Assembly (NCBI GenBank): GCA_946407735.1
Contig: CAMJPL010000004.1
Span: 70,782 to 134,781 of the forward strand
Reading direction: 5' to 3'
Origin: an uncultured Clostridia bacterium
Lineage (GTDB): Bacteria; Bacillota; Clostridia; Oscillospirales; CAG-272
Length of the DNA stretch: 64,000 nucleotides
Of this stretch, positions 37,741 to 41,206 are shown piece by piece. Position 1 is the stretch's first letter. Each line of letters begins with the position of its first letter. A program made the translations under genes and the position numbers. The notes beneath the pieces are model-generated. The model did not search any database. It was given only the letters and a program-made list of their open reading frames with translations, and was not told the origin of the DNA.

Positions 37741-39313
<1,573 letters not shown>

Positions 39314-39335: not shown

Positions 39336-39375
39336 CGCGGGAAAGCTTCGAAAGAGGCTTTCCCGCGGTCTTTTT
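39336..39375 (+). terminator. Terminator of guaB
   Basis: Perfect 11-bp stem CGCGGGAAAGC (39336-39346) and GCTTTCCCGCG (39357-39367) followed by GTCTTTTT. Confidence 0.93.
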
Positions 39376-39383
39376 ATTTCATT

Positions 39384-40943
39384 TTACCTCCACTCCCGCG
39401 TCACGTCGTGCAGGCCGTCAAGACCGAGCTCATAAATCGTTTCTCCGACTTCGGAGATGAATTTTCTGTCGTGCGACACGGCTATCACGGCGCCGTTGAA
39501 CTCACAAAGGACTCTTCTCACCTGAGGCCCTGACAGCGGGCTGAGATTGCGGGTGGGCTCATCGAGCAGAAGGACGTTGTAATCGCCGAGCAGCATCCTT
39601 ATCAGATACAGCTTCGCCTTCTGCCCTCCCGACAGCTCGCACGCCCTGCGCGTCATCTCATCCCGGGTGAACTTCATCGCGCCGAGGAATGTCCTTGCCA
39701 TCGTCACGTCGCCTTTCTCGCCGGACGGAGCGAGAAGCTCAACAGGCGTGAGGGAAAGATCCATTTCATCCTCGTAATTCTGCGGCATGTACGCCGCCCT
39801 GATGTCCCTGCGCCCGAGAAGCTCCGATGCGAGAAGCCTCATGAGCGTGGTCTTCCCGCAGCCGTTTTTCCCGGTTATCATAACGCGGGCCGGCCCAGTG
39901 ACGCTGAGCGATATATTCCTTGACAGCACCGTCATGCCGTCGGCGGAAAGAAGCTCCGGCAGACGATACTCAACGACCTTTTTTCCCTGAGGCATCTCTG
40001 TCTTTCCGACGAAGCTCGGCAGTATCGCTTCCTCGGATTCCGGGAAATCGGTCAGCTCTTCCCTCTCCTTTTCAAGCCGCCTGCCCATCGCTTTGACGGT
40101 GTGCATCTTCTTTTTCAGCAGCCTTCCGGTGCTGGGATTCTGCCGGGAGACGGTGTCCTGAGCGTAATCGACGGCGTCGTATATTCTGCGCCAGCGCTCG
40201 GTCTTCTTTTCGAATGCCTCCCTTTCCTCTCCAGCGACACGCGCCTGAGCCGCCATGCTTCTCTCCCTGCGGCTGACGTATTCGTCATACCCGATGCGCA
40301 TCACAGTCGAGCGGGGACGGCTCTTGTCTCTCAGCTGCTCGATATGGATCACCATATCCGCCGTCGACGATATCAGCGTCTCGTCGTGCGAGATATAGAG
40401 TATCGGCTTATCCGCCGACAGCATGAACCGCTCGAGCGTCTCAAGGGTCTCTATGTCGATGTCGTTCGACGGCTCGTCCAGAAGATAGACGTCAGGATCT
40501 GTGCAGATAAGAAGGAACAGCAGCAGCTTTACCCTCTCCCCGCCGGAAAGACTGCCGATATCCCGTGAGCTTTCGGTGAGAGAGATATCGAATCCGAGTT
40601 CATCCGCCGTCCTCATCTCACGGGGGATATCGCGCTCATATATCCCGAAGCGTTCGATATACCGCCTTGTGAATCCGTTTATCGGCTCCTCCTTTTCCTC
40701 CGGCGTCAGCTCCTGCGGCAGATAGCCGGTCACGACGCCCTTTTTCGATATCGTCCCCTCATATTCGGCATATCCTTCGACAAGCGCCGGGTCGTGGATC
40801 AGCTTCAGCAGCGTCGACTTGCCGTTGCCCTCCTCGCCGATTATGACGGCCTTGTCGCCCGGGTTAAGGGTAAAGCTGAGACCTTCTATAACGTTCCTCA
40901 TGTCCTTCGATATGACGACCGAGAGATTTCTTACTTCAAGCAT
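39384..40943 (-). CDS. ABC-F family ATPase (probable antibiotic-resistance or translation factor)
   Basis: Cytosolic protein with two ABC domains and no membrane part, 519 residues. Domain 1: Walker A GEEGNGKSTL, signature IGSLSGGERVKL, Walker B VYLLDEPSNDID. An interdomain linker of about 80 residues, rich in Arg/Lys (STGRLLKKKMHTVKAMGRRLEKERE), would reach the ribosomal P-site/peptidyl-transferase region. Domain 2: GKNGCGKTTL, ELSGGQKAKL, LLLDEPTRNLSPLSGPQVRR. The size, the short C-terminus and the attenuator-like leader favour a ribosome-protecting ABC-F over a housekeeping EttA/Uup type. Start at 40943 (MLEVRNLSVV). Confidence 0.88.
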   Translation of the reverse strand: MLEVRNLSVVISKDMRNVIEGLSFTLNPGDKAVIIGEEGNGKSTLLKLIHDPALVEGYAEYEGTISKKGVVTGYLPQELTPEEKEEPINGFTRRYIERFGIYERDIPREMRTADELGFDISLTESSRDIGSLSGGERVKLLLFLLICTDPDVYLLDEPSNDIDIETLETLERFMLSADKPILYISHDETLISSTADMVIHIEQLRDKSRPRSTVMRIGYDEYVSRRERSMAAQARVAGEEREAFEKKTERWRRIYDAVDYAQDTVSRQNPSTGRLLKKKMHTVKAMGRRLEKEREELTDFPESEEAILPSFVGKTEMPQGKKVVEYRLPELLSADGMTVLSRNISLSVTGPARVMITGKNGCGKTTLMRLLASELLGRRDIRAAYMPQNYEDEMDLSLTPVELLAPSGEKGDVTMARTFLGAMKFTRDEMTRRACELSGGQKAKLYLIRMLLGDYNVLLLDEPTRNLSPLSGPQVRRVLCEFNGAVIAVSHDRKFISEVGETIYELGLDGLHDVTREWR

Positions 40944-40964
40944 TATACATCCCGCCTTCAAATC

Positions 40965-41003
40965 AAAAATGTCCGGTATGACGGCTGAGCGTCTTACCGG
41001 ACA
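40965..41003 (-). terminator. Intrinsic terminator immediately upstream of the ABC-F gene (attenuator)
   Basis: Minus strand TGTCCGGTA (41003-40995) and TACCGGACA (40978-40970), a perfect 9-bp stem, followed by TTTTT (40969-40965). It lies inside the leader, 21 nt before the ATG, so it would block the gene unless read through. Confidence 0.88.
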
Positions 41004-41130
41004 TAACGAAATATATCAACAGATCAAAGCGGGATGGACCCTTGTATGACGGCAGATATACCTTCGCATGACCGCGTGAAGACAAACCGCCGCCAAAATA
41101 AGCGTACGCAATTCGATTCTTCACACAAAG

Positions 41131-41145
41131 TCAGCGATTGTACAT
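41131..41145 (-). CDS. Leader peptide MYNR (candidate uORF)
   Basis: ATG TAC AAT CGC TGA on the minus strand, preceded by AAAAGGG 7 nt upstream and about 26 nt from the predicted transcript start. Short uORFs of this kind precede several antibiotic-responsive ABC-F genes in Bacillota, where stalling on them prevents termination. An alternative ATG at 41163 would give a 14-codon frame (MMKRVKRC...) across the same site. Confidence 0.55.
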   Translation of the reverse strand: MYNR

Positions 41146-41177
41146 CTTTTCACCCTTTTCATCATCAATCTGCCTAT

Positions 41178-41206
41178 ATTATATCATACGGGCAGCGGCG
41201 TGTCAA
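41178..41206 (-). promoter_or_regulatory. Promoter of the ABC-F transcription unit
   Basis: Minus strand consensus TTGACA (41206-41201), 17 nt, TATAAT (41183-41178). A fully consensus promoter upstream of a terminator-blocked leader. Confidence 0.92.

Follow-up and report, generated by a model that had tools for sequence, protein, structure and literature searches.

The window analysed here, a 64,000-nucleotide stretch of DNA from an uncultured Clostridia bacterium, carries an ABC-F gene (39384-40943, minus strand; 519 aa, two ABC domains) behind a leader of about 228 nt. This arrangement raises the question of what the leader senses, and whether the protein behind it protects ribosomes from antibiotics or serves as a general translation factor. 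Our analysis makes it likely that the leader is a ribosome-sensing attenuator and that the gene is of the antibiotic-resistance (ARE) type; from this we infer a drug, induction by it and resistance to it.

Promoter and upstream open reading frame

The leader starts from a promoter of the sigma-70/sigma-A type on the minus strand (41206-41178; TTGACA-17-TATAAT, with an extended TG before the -10). The first-pass annotation had described this promoter as fully consensus, and it does match at 12 of 12 positions. Transcription was taken to start at 41171, an assumed 7 nt after the -10 element. The IMP dehydrogenase gene (guaB), which converges on the ABC-F gene, has an exact consensus promoter too (37741-37769, plus strand; TTGACA-17-TATAAT with TG before the -10), and a 14-bp hairpin between the two genes (39336-39367) has its T-run tail on the plus strand, the guaB side.

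A four-codon uORF, ATG TAC AAT CGC TGA (MYNR; 41131-41145, minus strand), had been reported 26 nt into the transcript with a good ribosome binding site. It is present as described, its ATG at about +27 if the start is 41171, with the Shine-Dalgarno (SD) sequence AAGGGTG at 41151-41157. The GGGTGAAAAGATG context of this SD is common to relatives, for example L033, L067 and L081, and the leaders from the same genus encode MINR (L031) and MEIR (L032) at the corresponding uORF. Two other leader ORFs, MMKRVKRCTIADFV from 41166 (about 5 nt into the transcript) and MRRYICRHTRVHPALIC from 41069, were dismissed on sequence as having neither an SD nor a counterpart in L031 or L032.

Searched with Rfam covariance models at gathering and relaxed thresholds, the ABC-F leader gave no credible match. 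Elsewhere in the window, a purine riboswitch aptamer (RF00167; 11723-11823, plus strand) scores 50.3 bits against a cut-off of 37, and a gene for a two-ABC-domain transporter ATPase lies about 1.6 kb downstream of it (ABC match from about 13406).

Fold of the leader

The region 41171-40941 folds at -91.9 kcal/mol (z = -7.2), lower than any of 200 shuffles. In the MFE structure, the uORF forms the basal 5' strand of an anti-antiterminator hairpin, SL-1 (41053-41147), and the same hairpin is found in L031 and L032. Downstream lies an intrinsic terminator (40965-41003) of -20.9 kcal/mol, made up of a hairpin at 41003-40970 with a 6-nt loop and U5 at 40969-40965. Described earlier as a perfect terminator with a TTTTT tail, it is indeed strong and the U5 is there, but an A.A mismatch splits the stem into 9 + 4 bp. 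This mismatch is probably why the terminator is not among the matches of a generic terminator scan of the window.

Around the terminator hairpin closes an outer stem, in which an anti-SD arm (ATCCCGCTTTGAT; 41035-41023) pairs with the ABC-F ribosome-binding region (40961-40949). The ABC-F SD is thereby hidden in the repressed fold: the SD is paired with a probability of about 1, its bases are about 0-0.15 unpaired, and the region is partly freed on imposing the antiterminator. An arm masking this ribosome binding site had been proposed at 41036-41029, which agrees with the fold apart from the exact placement of the arm. An analogous enclosing stem occurs in L031 and L032.

Predicted switching between antiterminator and terminator

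The strand at 41073-41055 has two alternative partners, pairing either with the uORF in SL-1 or with the antiterminator 3' strand (41017-40999) in a duplex of -13.8 kcal/mol. Since the latter pairing claims the five bases with which the terminator stem begins (UGUCC), antiterminator and terminator are truly exclusive. Mutually exclusive arms had been suggested from the first reading, and the helix 41067-41055 x 41017-41007 among them is real and extends to 41073-41055 x 41017-40999. However, the exclusivity of terminator and antiterminator is co-transcriptional and does not hold at equilibrium, where masking the uORF does not keep the terminator from forming. A repeat, GCCGTCATAC, considered as an antiterminator pairing with the terminator arm, gave 7 bp only and was replaced by the longer helix.

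We folded the transcript as it lengthens, either free or with the uORF masked by a ribosome footprint. In the free transcript of the window, the antiterminator has a probability of 0.00. Placing a ribosome on the start codon raises its core to 0.92 and the part taking the first five terminator-stem bases to 0.98, values that apply as the 3' end moves from about 41000 to 40979, before the 3' arm of the terminator has been made. The number of bases that switch from uORF pairing (free) to the terminator-side strand (stalled) is 13.3, against 0.78 +/- 1.39 in shuffles, none of which (0/200) reaches as high. Folding of 41171-40941 with its 5' end masked, the check put forward in the first-pass annotation, thus shows the predicted change in the partial transcript, but once the full terminator is made the equilibrium returns to it. 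In the window, the switch must therefore be kinetic. Attenuators usually are.

In L031, a near-complete switch is seen even at equilibrium. The free transcript has the anti-antiterminator at 0.98, the antiterminator at 0.00 and the terminator at 0.99; with a ribosome at the end of the uORF, these become 0.00, 0.93-0.97 and about 0.1. The mutual exclusivity of uORF hairpin, antiterminator and terminator is seen by folding in the window and in L031 and L032. Across 60 leaders, the terminator 5' arm pairs more with upstream RNA under a stall (0.65) than without one (0.43), and also more than swapped arms do (0.52), the kinship among these leaders making the significance optimistic. Loss of the terminator at equilibrium under a stall occurs in just 14-21% of 63 leaders.

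The folds bear on a second way in which such a leader could work, namely mainly by translation attenuation, with a hairpin that seldom terminates and an outer stem that opens to expose the ABC-F SD when a ribosome sits on the uORF. We regard this as possible, if somewhat doubtful. In read-through RNA, hardly any of the SD is left unpaired, the U tract is no longer than U5 and interrupted by a G, and a stall leaves the terminator in the window's equilibrium fold. There is also a precedent in Clostridioides difficile cplR, where a poly-U mutant was still regulated in an experiment. Yet the window has a strong terminator with U5 at the expected place, its antiterminator captures the foot of that terminator, and terminators recur in most relatives, all of which argues against a hairpin that seldom terminates.

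The ABC-F protein and its clade

The window protein has the two ABC_tran stretches in one chain, the long charged linker and the lack of a transmembrane domain that define an ABC-F. Measured from the switch His of ABC1 to the Walker A motif of ABC2, its linker is 174 aa long (172-178 aa across the clade), compared to 173 in Vga, 176 in MsrA, 177 in MsrE and 173 in Lsa; several of the reference values were derived from motif positions, and that of EttA from Walker B. Housekeeping linkers (EttA, Uup, YbiT, YheS and L005, the second ABC-F of the same genome) span 141-146 aa and are about 30 aa shorter than those of the clade. A linker about 30 aa longer than that of EttA is a mark of ARE1-5 (PMC6723617). 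In an AlphaFold model (pLDDT 91.5), the linker forms a helical hairpin at residues 219-264 and 270-295. Its tip, SRQ-x-P-x-x-G-x-LLKKKM (residues 266-284), is one of the best-conserved parts of the clade. In known AREs, the counterpart of the tip reaches the peptidyl transferase centre.

Our tree took in EttA, Uup, YbiT, YheS, Vga, Msr, Lsa, OptrA, PoxtA, a TlrC-like protein and the host's housekeeping-type ABC-F; for CplR, a phylum-level genome draw gave no usable member. The window protein falls in a clostridial clade of its own, with a support of 100/100 and a long stem, outside all housekeeping groups. Placement with housekeeping ABC-Fs, which the earlier reading had named as evidence that would count against it, is therefore not what the tree gives. 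Where the clade joins the known AREs, the deeper branching is weak and long branches meet.

For the window protein and six clade members, the best NCBIfam model is that of ribosomal protection-like ABC-F proteins (NF000355), with scores of 261-368 bits that lie below the curated cut-off of 380; the window protein scores 262, and a Blautia protein comes closest to the cut-off at 368. Against the NCBIfam models of named ARE subfamilies, the window protein stays far below every cut-off, for example at 167 bits for CplR (cut-off 780).

Occurrence of the gene is patchy: it is present in 7 of the family's 196 genomes, in 28 of the order's 245 and in three of the four genomes of the genus, the fourth of which is just 72% complete. 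The clade thus has the disjunct occurrence among related species that serves as a criterion for AREs. Its hosts are Clostridia of the gut and of digesters (Lachnospiraceae, Oscillospiraceae, Blautia, Neglectibacter). Two ABC-F relatives, L139 and L144, have an in-frame TAA and are possibly decaying copies, as expected of an accessory gene. Two contigs of one MAG (Oscillospiraceae RGIG4531; L033 and L035) carry near-identical ABC-F copies with identical 330-nt upstream regions, which reflect either a duplication or an assembly artefact.

These results also speak to the idea that the protein is an EttA-like translation factor for difficult sequences or stress, its attenuator sensing general translation trouble and not an antibiotic. 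ABC-F proteins do include housekeeping translation factors. Moreover, a Foldseek comparison gives no separation of AREs from housekeeping ABC-Fs: among solved structures, PoxtA and VmlR2 come first, with EttA close behind, and Uup and YbiT are also among the top matches. We nevertheless find this idea quite unlikely, given the separate clade, the ARE-length linker and the patchy distribution, as well as the 632-aa housekeeping-type protein (L005) already encoded in the same genome. The uORFs are, in addition, very short, and in vmlR and cplR such uORFs report drugs that act at initiation or early elongation.

Conserved uORFs and their peptides

A scan of genome contigs gave 80 relatives with 46-61% identity, all of them from Clostridia, and a further genome search brought the set to 107 distinct leaders. 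Of these, 71 have an ATG uORF of 3-4 codons with an SD, compared to 8.1 +/- 3.2 in shuffled leaders and to 20 of 265 (7.5%) upstream of neighbouring genes in the same loci. About a third of the relatives have no detectable 3-4-codon uORF. L042, L043, L047, L064 and L066 are clade members in which no attenuator uORF was detected, some at least lying close behind an upstream gene; regulation there may have been lost or replaced.

The peptides follow a simple rule. The last sense codon is Lys or Arg in 54 of the 71 uORFs, against 10% by chance, and the set includes MRK (19), MINR (7), MFR, MRR, MIIK, MTIR, MEIR, MYQR and the MYNR of the window. Codon usage varies behind these peptides: MRK is written with CGC, CGG, CGT or AGG followed by AAA or AAG, and a terminal Arg with AGA, CGC, CGG or CGA. 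Where two uORFs differ by a single nucleotide, the change is synonymous in 13 cases and non-synonymous in 7, several of the latter being K/R exchanges. Because the same peptides use different codons and synonymous changes prevail, selection appears to act on the peptide, beyond any constraint from RNA pairing. Pairing itself is, judging from compensated changes in L044, also under selection. There AAATAAT has become GGATGAT and its partner ATTATTT has become ATCATCC, so that three pairs are kept and the stop is kept as TGA. Tallies of stop codons and their partners were set aside as partly circular, pairing having been required.

It is very improbable that the uORF plays no part and that the leader's terminator instead depends on a protein or ligand, or that the leader is simply a 5' UTR expressed constitutively past a leaky terminator: although translation of the uORF is read from sequence and no Rfam family matches, the uORF is enriched over both shuffles and neighbouring genes, shows synonymous bias and a conserved K/R, and serves as the basal strand of SL-1 throughout.

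A model for the leader

The leader has the anatomy of an attenuator, it shows exclusive pairings when folded with a ribosome masking the uORF, and both the uORF and the class of its peptide are conserved. The original reading, a uORF-controlled attenuator of an ABC-F gene of the ribosome-protection type, is well supported by the folding switch, the uORFs in 71 of 107 leaders, the ARE-length linker, the patchiness and the non-housekeeping placement. From this we infer translation of the uORF, stalling by a drug and its class, termination and antitermination in the cell, and resistance.

In the proposed mechanism, ribosomes would, with no drug present, finish the four-codon uORF and leave, and SL-1 would form over it. 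The terminator could then form and end the transcript about 20 nt before the ABC-F start, and in transcripts that escape, the ABC-F SD would stay locked in the outer stem. A ribosome-targeting drug would hold a ribosome on the uORF and so cover the 5' side of SL-1. The freed switch strand (41073-41055) would pair with 41017-40999, capturing the foot of the terminator stem and keeping the anti-SD arm in a loop, so that RNA polymerase continues into the gene and the SD becomes accessible. The ABC-F protein would then bind the ribosomal E site and clear the drug.

More speculatively, and with rather low confidence, we suggest that the Lys/Arg-before-stop uORFs of the clade sense a different event from those of vmlR and cplR, namely arrest at the last codon or at termination and not at the start codon. 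Such an arrest might be caused, for instance, by drugs hindering basic A-site substrates or peptide release. Folding of the same-genus leaders hints in this direction: in L032, only a ribosome at the end of the uORF abolishes the terminator (0.98 to 0.03), and in L031 the loss is far greater with the ribosome there than with the ribosome at the start codon. Over 63 leaders, the difference between start-codon and uORF-end stalls was not significant (p = 0.075). When put into the vmlR leader, MRK, the commonest uORF peptide of the window's clade, gave the weakest induction by lincomycin (PMC9226507).

The gene thus points to a clade of probable ribosome-protection genes in Clostridia below current annotation cut-offs, which resistance surveys may miss. 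The clade also offers many naturally occurring versions of a minimal drug-sensing mini-gene whose peptides follow a clear rule, M-x(1-2)-[K/R]-stop, so that how short peptides set drug specificity becomes directly testable.

Comparison with known leaders

The first-pass annotation had found the leader peptide and arm layout unfamiliar. The layout is, however, the published vmlR/cplR arrangement of anti-antiterminator, antiterminator, terminator, SD-hiding stem and 3-4-codon uORF (PMC9226507, PMC10201436). What appears to be new here is the clade and its peptide rule, and the design itself was already known. In the open-access literature, the clade appears to be undescribed; a search of such papers turned up neither it, nor its peptide rule, nor clostridial ABC-F uORFs beyond that of CplR. 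Stalling on very short uORFs controls, or is predicted to control, VmlR (MIN), VmlR2 (MK[L/Q]), CplR (MR[I/M]), LsaA (MAGN) and Streptomyces are5sc (MLV), with experiments for several of these (PMC9226507, PMC10201436, PMC12421871).

The vmlR leader of Bacillus subtilis (uORF MIN; PMC9226507) shares with the window a very short uORF with its SD in the first hairpin, the anti-antiterminator/antiterminator/terminator logic and a hidden main SD. The two differ in that MYNR sits in the stem of SL-1 whereas the vmlR uORF sits in a bulge, and in the position of the SD-hiding stem, which surrounds the terminator in the window but comes after it in vmlR. The window protein also belongs to a separate clade, and its leader gave no evidence of a NusG pause. 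The C. difficile cplR leader (uORF MRI, consensus MR[I/M]; PMC10201436) is likewise clostridial and about 200 nt long, with a tiny uORF in a 5' hairpin and a terminator region that hides the main SD. Its uORF consensus differs, and it hides the SD by means of the terminator stem itself.

FAF1 and FAF2 are unnamed Firmicutes ABCF subfamilies predicted to be AREs from their patchy occurrence (PMC6723617). Compared by description only, they resemble the window clade, which may be one of them. The leaders of Lmo0919/VgaL, lsaA (MAGN), are5sc (MLV) and msrD share with the window ribosome-mediated attenuation of ARE ABC-F genes; the ABC-F subfamily and the uORF peptides of the window differ from theirs, but MLV also occurs in its clade (L036 and L048). 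The msrD leader has a longer, macrolide-specific stalling peptide. On every feature that sequence can test, the window leader is of the same kind as the VmlR and CplR leaders, with a uORF rule of its own.
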